IMG/VR virus record: IMGVR_UViG_3300031753_000015
Span: 1 to 42,919 of that record
DNA: 42,919 bases
Reading direction: 5' to 3' (one strand)
DNA from: a virus
Of the stretch, positions 5,808 to 42,919 are shown one piece after another (positions within the stretch are counted from its first letter, which is position 1; each line of letters begins with the position of its first letter). The notes below the pieces were generated by a model. The model saw nothing but the letters and a program-made list of their open reading frames with translations, was not told the DNA's origin and ran no database searches. The position numbers and the translations under genes are program-made.

Positions 5808-6016
5808 CAGTTCGCCTCCTCCTTGAGTCGCTCGTCCAGCAGCAGCCGCACGCGCGCTTCCGCCTCGGGCGAGAAGCGCCGCGAGCCCCGCTCGACCTCT
5901 CCGATGTGGACCGCGGTCATCCCCGCCAGCTCGCCCAGCGCGCGCAGGCTCAGCCCCGCGCGCTCGCGGAGCGCGCGGAGGGGGGCGCCGGCGAGTGGGA
6001 TGAGATCGGTAGCCAT
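5807..6016 (-). CDS. Xre/Cro-type helix-turn-helix regulator, leaderless start
   Basis: This is a 69-aa DNA-binding protein. Residues about 11-55 form the five-helix Xre/Cro fold: LRALRERAGLSLRALGELAG, MTAVHIGEVERGSRR, then the final helix in the Glu/Arg-rich tail. The start at ATG 6016 is chosen because a promoter of the shared TATGCTTACG family lies immediately upstream (-10 at 6024-6029) with no room for a ribosome binding site; the ATG at 6052 would overlap the -35. The protein is short, with only the DNA-binding domain. Because its own promoter belongs to the family, it is the best internal candidate for the factor that recognises these promoters and would be autoregulated. Confidence 0.85.
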   Translation of the reverse strand: MATDLIPLAGAPLRALRERAGLSLRALGELAGMTAVHIGEVERGSRRFSPEAEARVRLLLDERLKEEAN

Positions 6017-6023
6017 TGCCGTA

Positions 6024-6052
6024 AGCATACGACAGCTCGGCGGCAAATGCAA
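6024..6052 (-). promoter_or_regulatory. TATGCTTACG-family promoter, copy P1
   Basis: On the minus strand TTGCAT (6047-6052), 17 bp, TATGCT (6024-6029), then TACGGCA and ATG 6016 at seven bases. It drives the small Xre-type regulator in the middle of the minus-strand late genes, allowing its expression apart from them. Confidence 0.78.
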
Positions 6053-17421: not shown

Positions 17422-18026
17422 GGGGCAAGCTGCGCCAGCGAGATGAGTAGATCAGCAAAAGCTGGCGGTGTGAGGGCGCGTTGGCGTTTCGAGAGGCGCT
17501 GGCAGCGGCCGGTGCGGATGGCCCGCTGCCGCTCCTCTCGCGAGTGAAAGCCCTCTTCGGGCCTCACGCCGCGCGGCGCCGGTCCCCACGCGAGCTCTGG
17601 AAGGCGACTCTGACCGCGAGCGTAGAGCCATGTTCCCTTGCGGGCTTGGTGGCCGTAGTGGCCCTGCTCGACATAGCAGGTGAAGCCTCCGTCGCCGGCG
17701 GCAATCCATCCGCCGGCATGGTGTGGCCGCGTAAGACCAAATGCCTTCCAAGCGTGGCTGTCGCGCGGGTGCTCCAAAACACCACCAAACCGGCGCACGG
17801 CGGAGAGAGCTGCCGCGAAGCAACCGTCGTCGTCCCCGAGCAGCCGCCGCGGCGCGGTCATGTTCGGGCCTCCAGACCAGTATCGTCCCCACCGCGCGCA
17901 AGGCGGATGAGCTACGACAGGCCACGGTCCAGCATACAGGCGAGCGTCCCTCCGCTCGGGCCAGATGTCGATGTCGGCGCGGCCCGCATACGGGCCGTCT
18001 TCCAGCACGAACAGCGCTGCGATCAT
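17418..18026 (-). CDS. C5-cytosine-methyltransferase-like protein (HPPC family), leaderless
   Basis: This 202-aa protein starts at ATG 18026, six bases after the -10 of a TATGCTTACG-family promoter, so the mRNA is probably leaderless. VVAHPPCARWGRYW (about residues 37-50) resembles motif IV (PPC) of C5 methyltransferases, GGVLEHPRDSHAW resembles the ENV region, and EQGHYGHQARKGTWLYARG resembles motif VIII (YGxxQxRxR). I cannot find the glycine-rich SAM motif I, and the protein is much shorter than true C5 enzymes. Related short proteins occur in phages, from memory. It may be an anti-restriction or base-recognition protein rather than an active methylase. It stands alone between the control region and the tail operon. 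Confidence 0.75.
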   Translation of the reverse strand: MIAALFVLEDGPYAGRADIDIWPERRDARLYAGPWPVVAHPPCARWGRYWSGGPNMTAPRRLLGDDDGCFAAALSAVRRFGGVLEHPRDSHAWKAFGLTRPHHAGGWIAAGDGGFTCYVEQGHYGHQARKGTWLYARGQSRLPELAWGPAPRGVRPEEGFHSREERQRAIRTGRCQRLSKRQRALTPPAFADLLISLAQLAP

Positions 18027-18032
18027 GTCGTA

Positions 18033-18061
18033 AGCATACGCCTGCCTGCCGCAGGACGCAA
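18033..18061 (-). promoter_or_regulatory. TATGCTTACG-family promoter, copy P2
   Basis: On the minus strand the -35 is TTGCGT (18056-18061), the spacer is 17 bp and the -10 is TATGCT (18033-18038). TACGAC then separates the -10 from ATG 18026 by exactly six bases, which puts the expected first transcribed base at the A of the start codon. Confidence 0.75.
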
Positions 18062-19059: not shown

Positions 19060-19087
19060 TTGACACGCTGGCGCAGGAGCGTATAAT
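19060..19087 (+). promoter_or_regulatory. Strong sigma70-type early promoter
   Basis: A perfect TTGACA (19060-19065) and perfect TATAAT (19082-19087) are separated by 16 bp. It is the best consensus promoter in the window and should be read by the host polymerase at once after infection. Transcription would begin near 19094 and run through the plus-strand cluster to 23616. Confidence 0.9.
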
Positions 19088-29173: not shown

Positions 29174-29201
29174 TGACTTGCGCCGGGGAGGGGTGTATGC
29201 T
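29173..29201 (+). promoter_or_regulatory. TATGCTTACG-family promoter, copy P3
   Basis: TTGACT (29173-29178), 17 bp, TATGCT (29196-29201), then TACGGC. Here ATT rather than ATG stands at the expected first base, and a GAGGAGGT ribosome binding site leads to ATG 29226, so this copy makes a short leader. The -35 begins on the last base of the start codon of the divergent 1223-aa gene. Confidence 0.85.
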
Positions 29202-29225
29202 TACGGCATTCAGAGGAGGTGAGCG

Positions 29226-31108: not shown

Positions 31109-31137
31109 TAGACGCGGCCCTCGCGGTGGTGTATGCT
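31109..31137 (+). promoter_or_regulatory. TATGCTTACG-family promoter, copy P4
   Basis: TAGACG (31109-31114), 17 bp, TATGCT (31132-31137), then TACGGC and ATG 31144 at exactly six bases. The core ATGC-TTACG-GCAT is an inverted repeat here. It starts 13 bp upstream of the divergent 506-aa gene. Confidence 0.82.
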
Positions 31138-31143
31138 TACGGC

Positions 31144-31686
31144 ATGACCGAGGCAGAGGAGCTCGCCGCGTTCGCCTGGTTCGTCCAGACCGACCTGCTT
31201 CACCCGAGGAGAGGAGGCAGCCCCATGCAAAGGTACATGCCGGCCTTCTACATTTGCCGCCAAGGGATCGACGGCTCCGTGAGCCCCGTGATGACGGCGT
31301 GCGCAGCCGGCGAGTGGGTGCGCTTCGCCGACGTGCCGCAGTTCCCGGAGGTCGCCGCCGCCGAGAAGCGAGAGCGCGAGCTGGCGACGGCAGCGCTGCG
31401 GCAGAAGCAGGCCGCCGAGCGCGAGCGCGACGCGGCGCGCGCGGAGCTGGAGAATCTGCGCCGCGCGCACCGCATCGTGCAAGCCGAGGCCGATGGGCTG
31501 CTCGAGGAGCGCGACTCTCTGCGGCAGATGTGCCTTGAGGGCGCGCTGCCGGACGCCGGCTGGTGCTACGACACCCCGCCACCGCGCGCCACATTCGTAG
31601 ACATGGGGCAGAGCGACTCCCTCATCATTCGCTACGGCGACGCCTGGCGCCGCGTGGAGGCGCCCCCGCGGAAGCCGGCGAGCTGA
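31144..31686 (+). CDS. Moron-like gene, coiled-coil protein, 180 aa
   Basis: This plus-strand gene lies between two minus-strand virion genes. The leaderless ATG at 31144 sits at the expected transcription start of P4; a second in-frame ATG at 31225 has a strong GGAGG and could give a 153-aa form, so both may be used. The protein has a small N-terminal domain (MPAFYICRQGIDGSVSPVMT, EWVRFADVPQF), a charged coiled coil (residues about 85-140, EKRERELATAALRQKQAAER) and a C-terminal strand region (SDSLIIRYGDAWRRVE). No family is recognised. It may be a conversion or defence-related protein. Confidence 0.72.
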   Translation: MTEAEELAAFAWFVQTDLLHPRRGGSPMQRYMPAFYICRQGIDGSVSPVMTACAAGEWVRFADVPQFPEVAAAEKRERELATAALRQKQAAERERDAARAELENLRRAHRIVQAEADGLLEERDSLRQMCLEGALPDAGWCYDTPPPRATFVDMGQSDSLIIRYGDAWRRVEAPPRKPAS

Positions 31687-37321: not shown

Positions 37322-37350
37322 TAGACGGAGGCCTCCACCCGCTGTATGCT
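37322..37350 (+). promoter_or_regulatory. TATGCTTACG-family promoter, copy P5
   Basis: TAGACG (37322-37327), 17 bp, TATGCT (37345-37350), TACGGC, then ATG 37357 at exactly six bases. The -35 begins one base after the start codon of the divergent nozzle gene. The dyad ATGC-TTACG-GCAT is complete. Confidence 0.87.
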
Positions 37351-37356
37351 TACGGC

Positions 37357-38193
37357 ATGGCTGGATCGAATGGGCTCATCCGCTACTTCGGCGGCAAGGT
37401 GAAGATCGCGCCGTGGATCGTGGCGCACCTCCCTCCCCACCGCGTCTACGTTGAGCCCTTCGGCGGGGGGGCGGCGGTGCTGCTGGCGAAGCCGCGGGCG
37501 CGCGTGGAGGTCTACAACGACCTCGACGACGGCCTGGTGAACCTCTTTCGGGTCCTGCGGCACCCGACGCAGGGTGAGCAGCTGCTGCGGCTGGTGCGCC
37601 TGACGCCCTACGCCAGGAAGGAGTTCGAGGCGGCCTACGAGCCGACCGACGACCCGGTGGAGCGCGCCCGGCGCCTTCTGGTGCGGTCCCACCTGGGGCA
37701 TGGGGGAGAGGCCACCAACGGCAGAAGGACCGGCTTCCGCCGCGCCAGCCACAGAAAGGAGGCGAGATCCACGCACCCCGCCCTCGATTGGCCGCGGTAC
37801 CCTGCGCGCCTCGCGCGGCTGATCGCGCGGCTGGCCGGCGTCGTGGTCGAGCATCGGCCGGCGATCGAGGTGATGGCGTACTACGATGCGCCGGACACCG
37901 CGACCTACCTGGACCCCCCGTACCTGGTCGAGCTGCTTCAAAATCCCTACGACCGTCTCTACAATCACCCCCTCGCGCCGCTCGGCCACGAGGACCTGGC
38001 AGCGGCGGCCTCCCGCTGCGCCGGCACGGTCCTGGTGAGCGGCTACCACTCGCCGCTCTACGACCGGCTGTACGCGGGCTGGCAGCGCCACGAGCGCCGC
38101 GCGGTGACGACCGGCGGCGGCAGGAGGACGGAGGTCCTCTGGATCAAGCCCGCGGGTCACCAGATCCCCTGTAGCGGCTGCTCTTCGCCGTAG
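37357..38193 (+). CDS. Dam-type DNA adenine methyltransferase (D12 class), leaderless
   Basis: The protein is 278 aa from ATG 37357, with no ribosome binding site because the promoter directly precedes it. The D12-class order is complete: GLIRYFGGK (residues 6-14), SAM motif I VEPFGGGAAVLL (32-43), VEVYNDLDDGLVNLF (50-64), and catalytic TYLDPPYLVE (DPPY at 186-189). The length matches the family. It would methylate adenine N6 in a short site, either to protect phage DNA from restriction or to affect regulation. It stands alone on the plus strand between minus-strand virion genes, in a moron position, and its last 37 bp overlap the 3' end of the convergent adaptor gene. Confidence 0.92.
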   Translation: MAGSNGLIRYFGGKVKIAPWIVAHLPPHRVYVEPFGGGAAVLLAKPRARVEVYNDLDDGLVNLFRVLRHPTQGEQLLRLVRLTPYARKEFEAAYEPTDDPVERARRLLVRSHLGHGGEATNGRRTGFRRASHRKEARSTHPALDWPRYPARLARLIARLAGVVVEHRPAIEVMAYYDAPDTATYLDPPYLVELLQNPYDRLYNHPLAPLGHEDLAAAASRCAGTVLVSGYHSPLYDRLYAGWQRHERRAVTTGGGRRTEVLWIKPAGHQIPCSGCSSP

Positions 38194-38927: not shown

Positions 38928-38955
38928 TGACTGCCGCCGGCAGGGCGTGTATGCT
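38927..38955 (+). promoter_or_regulatory. TATGCTTACG-family promoter, copy P6
   Basis: TTGACT (38927-38932), 17 bp, TATGCT (38950-38955), then TACGGA and ATG 38962 at six bases. The -35 begins on the last base of the start codon of the divergent adaptor gene, the same geometry as copy P3. Confidence 0.85.
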
Positions 38956-38961
38956 TACGGA

Positions 38962-39279
38962 ATGGATAGATTCCTGCGGTGGGCCGGCACCTCCGAACAG
39001 TATCTGACCGCTGCGGCTGCCGTCCTCCAGGATCGCGGATGGCAGGACCCGCCCATCAATGGGCGGCACGAGGTCGACGAATCGGTGCGACAGGCAGTAG
39101 GCTCTGAGTTTCTGATGCCGATGGCCGCCTGGACCGCGCTTCGCATGCACCTGGGGCGGCACTCCGTTTCCTTCCAGCGGGATCTCCTGCCCCAGCTTAT
39201 CGCCATTCTGCGATCGTCCGCCGTCGCCGCGCGCGAACTCTCCTACCTCGACGAGATCCCCGAAGACGAGGACGACTAG
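38962..39279 (+). CDS. Moron-like leaderless gene, unknown 105-aa protein
   Basis: The start is ATG 38962, at the expected first transcribed base of P6; the in-frame ATG at 38761 is rejected because it lies inside the divergent adaptor gene. The protein is helical (MDRFLRWAGTSEQYLTAAAA, SVRQAVGSEFLMPMAAWTAL), with a basic middle and a strongly acidic end (EIPEDEDD). Acidic tails of this kind occur in DNA-mimic and anti-restriction proteins, but that is only a suggestion. It lies between the adaptor and capsid-side genes and is followed by a strong hairpin. Confidence 0.72.
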   Translation: MDRFLRWAGTSEQYLTAAAAVLQDRGWQDPPINGRHEVDESVRQAVGSEFLMPMAAWTALRMHLGRHSVSFQRDLLPQLIAILRSSAVAARELSYLDEIPEDEDD

Positions 39280-39886: not shown

Positions 39887-41089
39887 TTAGACGTCGCTGT
39901 AGTGGGAGACGACGCCCCCACCGAACGACTCTTGGTTGCCCTGGTTGAGGTTGACCACCACCCGGTTCAAGCCCCAGTTGGTGTCGACCTGGAAGGTCCA
40001 GTTGCGCAGCAGGGTCACGTCGGTGTAGCCGAAGTGATTGCCGCCGGTGAAGCCGGACCCGTAGGTGCAGTGGCCGCTGCGGGCGCCGAGGAAGAGAGCC
40101 CGCTTGACGTTCGCTTGGTTGGCGCCGGTGCCGAGGGGCGCGCCGGGGCCGGCGTTGACGACGCCAGGCGGCAGGAAGTCGCTCTTGAGCACGACCGTCT
40201 TGCCGTAGCGGAAGCCGTCCGCGGTGATGAGCGGGGAATCGTCGTAACCCTCGCCGCCGGTGATCGCGGCCCGGGCCAGGTCGTAGAAGTCGCTCTGCGA
40301 GCTGTTGAGCTTGATCTGCTGGAAGCCCTGCGGCGACAGGATGAGAACGAAGTACTCACCCCACGGGGTCTGCATGGGAGCCATCGGCCACTCCACGTAG
40401 TCCCGCGACGTCCACCGCTTGACCAGCTCGTCGATGACGCGGGTGGACATCTGGCTCGAGGGAGCATTGGCGATCTGCGTCTCGGTGGTGTTGGAGCCGC
40501 CGCCGGACGGGGGCACCAGGTACCACTTGCCACCCTGACCGTTGGTCTTCGTGCCGTCCGGCGGCACGACGACGTTGCCGCAGGACATCGTGTAGTCGGT
40601 GAAGTTGTTGACGGGCAGCTGCGGGCCGCCGGCGCCGTTCGCCACGGTCCCGGTGAAGCCGGCGAGCTGGCGGAAGATCGAGTACTCCAGATGCTCGGCG
40701 TGCTGCCGCGCGACGCGCCCGATCTCGTTGCGCTTCAGGTTGAAGCTCACCTGGTTCTGTTCGGCGGGGAGGTTGGGGACGCCGCCGTCGAACTTGTAGT
40801 AGCGCATCGACAGGGAGACGTCGATGTAGCTGGTGCCGGACGCCTGGCCGAGCGAGTTGACGAGCGCCGTCTTCGGGACCTCGCCGTGGTTGGGCTGGGT
40901 GAAGCGCATGATGATGGTGTCGCCGCGGCCACCACCGCCCGCATCGGGGCGGTCCTCGTAGACGATGCCGCTCTTGGGCTTGTTGCCCTCGATTAGCTTC
41001 GCCAGGACCTTGCGCTCCGTCTCGACGATGACTCCAGCTCGCCAGTTGAGCTGGGAAAGGGTGCTGCCTGGCAAGATGACGGTCGGCAC
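39887..41089 (-). CDS. Major capsid protein (N4-gp56/DUF4043-like)
   Basis: The protein is 400 aa from GTG 41089, with AGGAGG 7 nt upstream. Residues 20-160 match the N4-gp56-like pattern: an N-terminal ETERKVLAKLIEGNKPKS helix, GGRGDTIIMRFTQPNHGEVP, DVSLSMRYYKFDGG, then FNLKRNEIGRVARQHAEHLE leading to a long spine helix and the FRQLAGFTG turn. The middle and C-terminal parts contain ADGFRYGKTVVLKSDFLPPG and HFGYTDVTLLRNWTFQVDTN. It forms the HK97-fold shell. It has a private promoter and a long leader whose last hairpin hides its ribosome binding site. It is oddly distant from the portal and scaffold genes. Confidence 0.85.
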   Translation of the reverse strand: MPTVILPGSTLSQLNWRAGVIVETERKVLAKLIEGNKPKSGIVYEDRPDAGGGGRGDTIIMRFTQPNHGEVPKTALVNSLGQASGTSYIDVSLSMRYYKFDGGVPNLPAEQNQVSFNLKRNEIGRVARQHAEHLEYSIFRQLAGFTGTVANGAGGPQLPVNNFTDYTMSCGNVVVPPDGTKTNGQGGKWYLVPPSGGGSNTTETQIANAPSSQMSTRVIDELVKRWTSRDYVEWPMAPMQTPWGEYFVLILSPQGFQQIKLNSSQSDFYDLARAAITGGEGYDDSPLITADGFRYGKTVVLKSDFLPPGVVNAGPGAPLGTGANQANVKRALFLGARSGHCTYGSGFTGGNHFGYTDVTLLRNWTFQVDTNWGLNRVVVNLNQGNQESFGGGVVSHYSDV

Positions 41090-41093
41090 TGCT

Positions 41094-41157
41094 GCACCTC
41101 CTGCAAGAGGGTCCAGGTGCTACGATGCGCCGACTTGCTCAGCGCGGCAGGAGGTGC
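41094..41157 (-). promoter_or_regulatory. RNA stem that sequesters the capsid ribosome binding site
   Basis: GCACCTCCTGC and GCAGGAGGTGC form a perfect 11-bp inverted repeat (41094-41104 with 41147-41157) around a 42-nt loop. In the minus-strand mRNA the 3' arm contains the whole AGGAGG of the capsid gene, with only four bases (AGCA) between the arm and the GTG start. Folded, it would block ribosome binding, so capsid synthesis should depend on opening this stem. Confidence 0.8.
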
Positions 41158-41309: not shown

Positions 41310-41356
41310 TGCGGGGTCCCAGGTCCCGGCAGGGCTCGCGTTGCCCCGCAGCGAAG

Positions 41357-41386
41357 ACTTTACGGCGTACGGTTGGCGGGTGTCAA
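41357..41386 (-). promoter_or_regulatory. Capsid gene promoter
   Basis: TTGACA (41381-41386, perfect) and TAAAGT (41357-41362, four of six) are separated by 18 bp on the minus strand. It lies 60 bp downstream of the end of the fibre-like gene, and gives the capsid and decoration genes an independent, presumably strong transcript. Confidence 0.7.
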
Positions 41387-42525: not shown

Positions 42526-42919
42526 TCAAAAGTCAATGGCGACCGTGATCGGTACGCCGTAGTCGGTCGTCTTCGCGCCCGGGAGCGCCGAGTAGCCGTA
42601 GCTGGCATAGGGCCGCGCGCCGAGCACGAGCGCGCGGCCGCAGCGCCAGCTCTTGGCCGCGCAGCTGTCGTTGCTGCCGAGATGCACGCTCAGGAAGTCG
42701 TGCTCGACGAACAGGCCGAAGCGCTTTCCAACAAAGTCCCACTCCCCGCCGGCCCGCGACAGGCCGCCGAGCTGGAAGCGGGGGCGCGGGTTGGGCGCGA
42801 TGGAGAGCGAGAACGCTGGCTCCTCGCTCGGCTTGCCGGTCAGCGCCGGCAGGGCGGTGCCGCCGTAGGGTAGGCGCGGCAGCTTCTGCTCGGGGTAGGT
42901 GGTGGTTACCGGCTGCTCG
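42526..42919 (-). CDS. Single-pass membrane protein crossing the contig join (3' part)
   Basis: This is the C-terminal part of the 273-aa protein whose start is at 655; only 42526-42692 adds new sequence, because 42693-42919 repeats 1-227. The C-terminal domain ends in VPITVAIDF and contains two Cys residues ten apart (SNDSCAAKSWRC), which could form a disulfide in the periplasm. Its stop TGA lies beside the GAGGAG ribosome binding site of the next gene (start 42515), so the two are probably translationally coupled. The pattern of alternating hydrophobic residues and the closing beta-like strand resemble small outer-membrane or beta-sandwich domains, but no family assignment is made. Confidence 0.78.
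   Translation of the reverse strand, partial: EQPVTTTYPEQKLPRLPYGGTALPALTGKPSEEPAFSLSIAPNPRPRFQLGGLSRAGGEWDFVGKRFGLFVEHDFLSVHLGSNDSCAAKSWRCGRALVLGARPYASYGYSALPGAKTTDYGVPITVAIDF
42693..42919. repeat. Terminal direct repeat, right copy
   Basis: This is the second copy of the 227-base end repeat, with the single difference at 42792. In the gene crossing the join the mismatch changes an Asp codon (left copy) to Asn (right copy). This could be population variation in the sampled phage or an assembly difference at an unpolished end. Confidence 0.9.

Follow-up and report, generated by a model that had tools for sequence, protein, structure and literature searches.

Structured capsid leaders in the phrog_334 phage family and a plausible leader-gated major capsid gene in a GC-rich phage

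The phage genome and the leader of its major capsid gene

The window analysed here, the whole 42,919 nt of record IMGVR_UViG_3300031753_000015, is a complete phage genome with a GC content of 71%. It has a direct terminal repeat of 227 nt (1-227 and 42693-42919), from which it follows that the record is complete and hence that genes continue across its ends. A P22-type portal and a large terminase are encoded in it, and the region of interest comprises the following features:

39887..41089, minus strand: major capsid gene, GTG start, 400 aa; phrog_334 match, 25% identity to the capsid of relative L015
41090..41447, minus strand: intergenic leader region of 358 nt, without coding signature in six-frame codon log-odds
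41357..41386, minus strand: promoter-like TTGACA-18-TAAAGT, 10/12 consensus match, start predicted near 41350; not in itself evidence of function

The initial annotation regarded the 400-aa ORF as the major capsid gene, and this was borne out both by a profile match to the phrog_334 major head protein (E 1.6e-7, residues 189-357) and by 25% identity to the phrog_334 capsid of the distant relative L015 (E 5e-11). An AlphaFold model of the capsid built without alignment had a pLDDT of 29. Searches with the single capsid sequence in viral contigs, cultured phages and bacterial genomes gave no relatives, and with the portal as query none was confirmed. With terminase profiles, more than 450 viral and 76 genomic relatives could be found; among the matches listed none exceeded about 33% TerL identity to the window. 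Judged by these comparisons, the phage appears to be an isolated lineage.

The leader lies between an upstream 355-aa gene and the capsid gene. The promoter-like site at 41386-41357 has an expectation of 0.1 in shuffles of the 800-nt region, and a transcript starting near 41350 would carry both arms of the inverted repeat over the Shine-Dalgarno sequence (SD). In a search for promoters of the sigma-70 type, none was found between the arms and the capsid start. Comparison with Rfam 15 gave nothing at E<=1, either for the window or for the loci of 12 relatives.

Other promoter-like elements are present elsewhere in the window. A perfect consensus promoter, TTGACA-16-TATAAT, is located at 19060-19087 (+) at the start of the rightward early genes, and the motif GTATGCTTACGGCAT occurs in six copies where 0.3 are expected:

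29195-29209, 31131-31145, 37344-37358 and 38949-38963, plus strand: copies of the repeated motif GTATGCTTACGGCAT
6016-6030 and 18025-18039, minus strand: copies of the same motif

The motif resembles a promoter, the four plus-strand copies each having T[TA]GAC[TG] 17 nt upstream. Each of these copies coincides with the beginning of a minus-strand late gene and has a plus-strand ORF after it; these ORFs are apparently moron-like cassettes facing against the late operon. One of them (37357-38193, +) encodes a D12-class adenine methyltransferase (PF02086, E 6.8e-15). The ATG of this gene and the one at 31144 coincide with the expected start of transcription, which suggests leaderless mRNAs.

The inverted repeat and burial of the Shine-Dalgarno sequence

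The SD of the capsid gene forms part of an inverted repeat, the elements of which are:

41094..41104, minus strand: 3' arm GCAGGAGGTGC, with the SD AGGAGGTG (41095-41102); SD:16S anti-SD duplex of -14.0 kcal/mol
41105..41146, minus strand: 42-nt loop region with an inner 7-bp helix GCGCTGA/TCGGCGC and a second SD-complementary stretch, GCACCT, at 41115-41120 (from folds and sequence)
41147..41157, minus strand: 5' arm GCACCTCCTGC, containing CACCTCCT, whose letters are identical to the 16S anti-SD core
41063..41075, minus strand: early capsid codons CTTGCCAGGCAGC, which in predicted folds pair with the loop side of the 11-bp stem and compete with the stem

The arms are 11 nt each, 100% complementary and separated by 42 nt, in agreement with the exact inverted repeat reported in the initial annotation, with the capsid SD in its 3' arm; the nine G-C pairs counted there are off by one, the stem having 8 G-C and 3 A-U pairs. 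The SD is placed 5 nt before the GTG start (41089) and is the strongest in the genome.

This 71%-GC genome has about ten pairs of perfect arms of at least 11 nt lying within about 60 nt of each other. An exact 11-nt complement covering the SD was obtained in 14 of 20,000 dinucleotide-shuffled leaders, and SD complements of at least 11 nt are expected in 0.005 genes genome-wide, the runner-up among 36 genes having 7 nt. The exact complement to the SD in the window exceeds what chance would give. The burial of the SD is unexceptional for a sequence of 71% GC: its opening energy, about 10 kcal/mol, ranks first or second among 30 genes but belongs to a continuous distribution and is no outlier, and the burial is matched by 4-8% of shuffled leaders. 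For the whole ribosome binding site (RBS) of the capsid gene the z score ranged from -0.2 to +0.9, varying with the stretch folded.

The stem is predicted with P>0.99 on transcripts ending at 41094-41086, that is, once the SD has been transcribed. The probability falls when the transcript reaches 41062, and it drops to 0.06-0.98 with the first 30-90 coding nucleotides added, because the segment 41063-41075 competes for the loop side; alternative minimum-energy folds were also found. A ribosome site enclosed in a helix, as in the T4 e and soc type of leader, is thus present in the window by prediction.

Removal of the 5' arm is not predicted to release the SD. With this arm masked or missing from the transcript the predicted SD opening energy was 6-10 kcal/mol, and for a transcript from 41146 it was still 8-10 kcal/mol; masking of just this arm and the start at 41146 together span 7.4-10 kcal/mol. 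The largest drop of all maskings tested was obtained for 41124-41155 (from about 10 to 5.6-6.7 kcal/mol), and values of about 6 kcal/mol require either a start near 41110 or a ribosome placed over 41124-41155. The folding model therefore describes an SD buried redundantly, with the 5' arm itself redundant. Since the burial is redundant, the picture of a single stem and a single key is too simple, and the earlier view of one very stable stem that must be opened cannot be kept in that form. A transcription start downstream of 41147, which had been put forward as a refutation, would not alone free the SD.

When the exact stem pattern was sought in viral contigs, the only two matches were both in unrelated coding sequences. 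A looser pattern, anti-SD followed by SD and accompanied by a scrambled control, gave many matches on both strands of viral contigs, as pairs of divergent SDs would give.

Capsid leaders of related phages

Capsids of phrog_334 were reached via the terminase relatives, and a capsid profile added 80 loci. In nearly all of these loci a non-coding leader, mostly of 100-300 nt, separates the capsid gene from a scaffold-like ORF of about 300 aa; the upstream neighbour is usually a scaffold-like or small gene. Genes for HNH endonucleases adjoin the capsid gene in three relatives (L516, 598-1173; L517, 1-222; L519, 508-1086), and in L517 (ctDrO704) the first 30 capsid residues are without annotation, as if the start were interrupted or misannotated.

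Compared with dinucleotide shuffles, the RBS was buried in 78 capsid leaders of relatives with a mean z of +1.93 (standard error 0.28; 44% at p<=0.05), versus a mean z of -0.09 (5% at p<=0.05) for 160 other genes of ten relatives. The difference is significant in a Mann-Whitney test (p 3e-12), a value which is optimistic since the leaders are related to each other, while the contrast itself is large. In two groups of related phages the capsid ribosome sites are buried far beyond chance; several relatives, among them KPP25 and Pan3, show no burial. Stretches of at least 7 nt complementary to the SD were present in 9 of 71 relatives' leaders and in 3.8% of control genes, a mild enrichment. Since burial is seen in the capsid leaders of relatives and not in the other genes sampled from them, the family data strongly support the proposal that a major capsid gene is under the control of its own leader; in the window itself the whole-RBS burial does not go beyond composition.

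The highest burial of all groups was found for eleven Bcep22-like phages (POI1126, Skulduggery, PEp14, PBC5, BcepIL02, LASTA, JC1, DC1, BcepMigl, Itty13 and Parlo), with a mean z of +3.45. A conserved GCGCANGANGTGC segment constitutes the 5' arm in these leaders, and it pairs with a stretch located at the SD or the start codon or next to one of them. Pairing of this segment with the ribosome-site region was supported in an anchored test (Fisher p 4e-10), in which it was weak or absent in DC1, Itty13 and Parlo. Matching changes are seen in the two arms (GACGTGC/GCACGTT, GATGTGC/GCACATC, GACGTG/CACGTC and GAGTGC/GCACTC). In the window leader, read directly, the GCGCANGANGTGC anchor is absent.

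In eleven phages the capsid leader directly follows a gene annotated as CsrA-like (BcepIL02, LASTA, JC1, DC1, CSP3, BcepMigl, Itty13, ZX1, SopranoGao, Parlo and Pavtok), in DC1 with a 90-nt reverse ORF between the two, and PEp14 and Skulduggery have at this place a CsrA-like ORF not named as such. POI1126 and PBC5 have no CsrA-like gene directly before the leader, and no CsrA gene (PF02599) was found in the window or in 12 relatives. Among the loci analysed, a CsrA-like gene directly precedes a ribosome-site-burying capsid leader in L521, L523, L525, L528-L532, L534 and L536-L539. Some Bcep22-like leaders contain CAGGAUGU-like sites, and several Bcep22-like anchors lack GGA. We infer that the CsrA-like protein probably reads the capsid leader in Bcep22-like phages. 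Phage csrA genes have been surveyed (PMC7366521), and phage csrA has been called a moron of unknown benefit (PMC9144972); its position upstream of the capsid gene has merely been noted (PMC10269572). Knock-down of csrA in the E. coli phage PTXU04 leads to smaller plaques (PMC11879866), and this phage was considered as a model but was dropped, its csrA not being beside the capsid gene.

The second group is characterised by a small element, often in tandem in the capsid leaders, which consists of TTCGY, 0 to 7 nt, a stem of 4-8 bp and a loop (N)RCGNNA, 20-30 nt in all. The CGY of the linker is able to pair with the RCG of the loop, and we take the geometry, with its short first loop and A-rich last loop, to fit an H-type pseudoknot. 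Such units are found in the capsid leaders of about half of 82 relatives (L405-L495, L516, L518 and L519), including the cultured Rhizobium phage RHph_Y1_10, Microcystis phage Mae-JY35 and Paracoccus phage KLEP18-1. As hairpins of these lengths do not align well, counts of the pattern with controls were used. Discovery and counting drew on one set of leaders, and the weight is therefore carried by the antisense, shuffle and genome-wide controls: 81 hairpins in the 82 leaders versus 2.9 in shuffles, 52 sense units with linker and Y:R pairing versus 1 antisense, and, of 24 units in ten nearly complete genomes, 11 in capsid leaders, a density about 200 times that elsewhere. The Y and R positions, each free for two letters, were in the first set C-G in 28 cases, U-A in 19, U-G in 4 and C-A in 0. 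In the pair count 99.3% were paired, and none of 500 shuffles was as high. Copies within one leader may use different Y:R pairs (L433, L407 and L494). The mini-pseudoknot, with its clear covariation, is a candidate new RNA family; Rfam gave no match to it, and nothing on it was found in the open-access literature searched. The idea of an anti-SD strand in the pseudoknot closest to the SD found no support (p 0.39).

One element of this kind may be present in the window:

41329..41355, minus strand: mini-pseudoknot-like hairpin with linker TTCGC (41351-41355), stem GCGGGGC/GCCCTGC and loop AACGCGA

This hairpin has a TTCGY linker, a stem of at least 4 pairs and an RCGNNA-type loop, and it lies on the sense strand of a capsid leader. 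With a relaxed definition chosen after the window had been seen (RCG followed by any letter, a stem of 6 or more Watson-Crick pairs), it is the single match on both strands of the window (41355-41329, sense); units so defined are present in 0.1% of shuffled leaders, and the relaxed pattern gave 19 sense, 0 antisense and 0.1 shuffled matches in relatives. Its Y:R pair is a C.A mismatch, which occurs in 1 of 64 units of relatives, it is a single copy with no tandem, and the start predicted near 41350 would cut into its linker. We regard it as a candidate, imperfect copy of the mini-pseudoknot.

Gating of capsid translation and known systems

For the family, gating of capsid translation by the leader has good support; for this phage it is plausible, and the window stem taken alone makes a weak case for a switch. 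On balance we would put it at about even chances that the window region is a leader RNA gating translation of the major capsid gene as one instance of a general habit of the phrog_334 podovirus capsid family. This habit would have two architectures: Bcep22-like phages enclose the ribosome site in a hairpin, and the second group has TTCGY/RCGNNA mini-pseudoknots, often in tandem. The device of the window would be the 11-bp stem, formed upon transcription of the SD and backed by overlapping weaker pairings. The gate may lower or delay capsid synthesis until an RNA-binding factor or a refolded leader admits ribosomes, the factor in Bcep22-like phages probably being the CsrA-like protein encoded directly upstream, and the coat protein could in this way be made at the right time and in the right ratio to scaffold and portal. 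More tentatively, it may be proposed that podoviruses with this capsid family share one structured-leader gate, appearing as a CsrA-read hairpin in Bcep22-like phages and as mini-pseudoknot arrays in the larger, mostly uncultured group, with the stem and single degenerate pseudoknot of the window as its GC-rich divergent version.

A by-product of base composition is a possible but less probable alternative. At 71% GC burial of the SD by several kcal/mol would be the rule, a very strong SD, standby binding or co-transcriptional loading would cope with this, and the 11-bp match would be a chance extreme devoid of regulatory function. For other genes of the window the SD opening energies are indeed 7-10.5 and the RBS opening energies 17-18 kcal/mol, the shuffles that reach the observed burial and the whole-RBS z of -0.2 point the same way, and the capsid SD, with its -14 kcal/mol duplex, is the best one in the genome. 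However, an exact SD complement of 11 nt is expected in 0.005 genes, with 7 nt as the next best, and it falls on the one gene type for which burial is selected across relatives.

Release by transcription, following the logic of T4 e and soc, would keep long transcripts folded and silent until a later promoter inside the 5' arm gave a short transcript with a free SD. There is precedent in phages, including the capsid gene soc (PMC3014915), but we consider it improbable here, as the only promoter found in the search for sigma-70-like sites is the one at 41386-41357, with none between the arms and the start, and the transcript from 41146 keeps its high opening energy. Equally improbable is translational coupling, by which ribosomes on a short ORF (GTG 41198 to TGA 41137) would cover the 5' arm and free the SD, as in leader-peptide attenuators; the 19-codon frame does span the 5' arm, and masking of 41124-41155 lowers the opening energy as described, but GTG 41198 has no SD and the frame has no coding signature. 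It is very improbable that the inverted repeat represents the back-to-back SDs of divergent genes with no RNA stem. Many viral contigs do have a CACCTCCT..AGGAGGTG match on both strands, and the plus strand reads GCAGGAGGTGC and then TTG, but the spacing from SD to TTG is very short and no downstream plus-strand frame carries a coding signature.

The reading we prefer, gating by the leader, would have consequences beyond this genome. The amount and timing of the most abundant protein of tailed phages relative to scaffold and portal are usually explained by promoters, to which a family-wide selected burial of the capsid ribosome site, in some phages accompanied by a neighbouring gene dedicated to RNA binding, would, if true, add translational gating. 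It would also offer a testable role for phage-encoded CsrA proteins, so far regarded as morons of unknown benefit (PMC9144972).

The leader had been suggested to be a new type of phage RNA switch, which is too strong: the ribosome sites of the T4 genes e, soc, 49 and I-TevI are masked by RNA helices (PMC3014915), and the masked-RBS leader described here is a variant on these known leaders. As in T4, a cis stem, here a predicted one, encloses the SD of a late or virion gene, and a strong loss of 30S access is predicted. Release in T4 is by late promoters inside the 5' strand, whereas none is seen in the window and, by prediction, the SD stays buried without the 5' arm; moreover, the gene in the window encodes the major capsid protein and not a decoration, lysis or endonuclease function.

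CsrA/RsmA proteins exert translational control via leaders. The Bcep22-like phages resemble such systems in having a CsrA-like gene directly upstream of the RBS-burying capsid leader and some CAGGAUGU-like candidate sites, and differ from them in the several anchors without GGA, while the window and 12 relatives are without CsrA. The mini-pseudoknots, on the other hand, can be compared with the leader of T4 gene 32, in which a pseudoknot is bound by gp32 (autocontrol reviewed in PMC3014915). Both are small pseudoknots in a phage leader and part of translational control, which for the present elements is a prediction, but those described here are 20-30 nt long, often tandem, built with a TTCGY linker and an RCGNNA loop, and placed before capsid genes.
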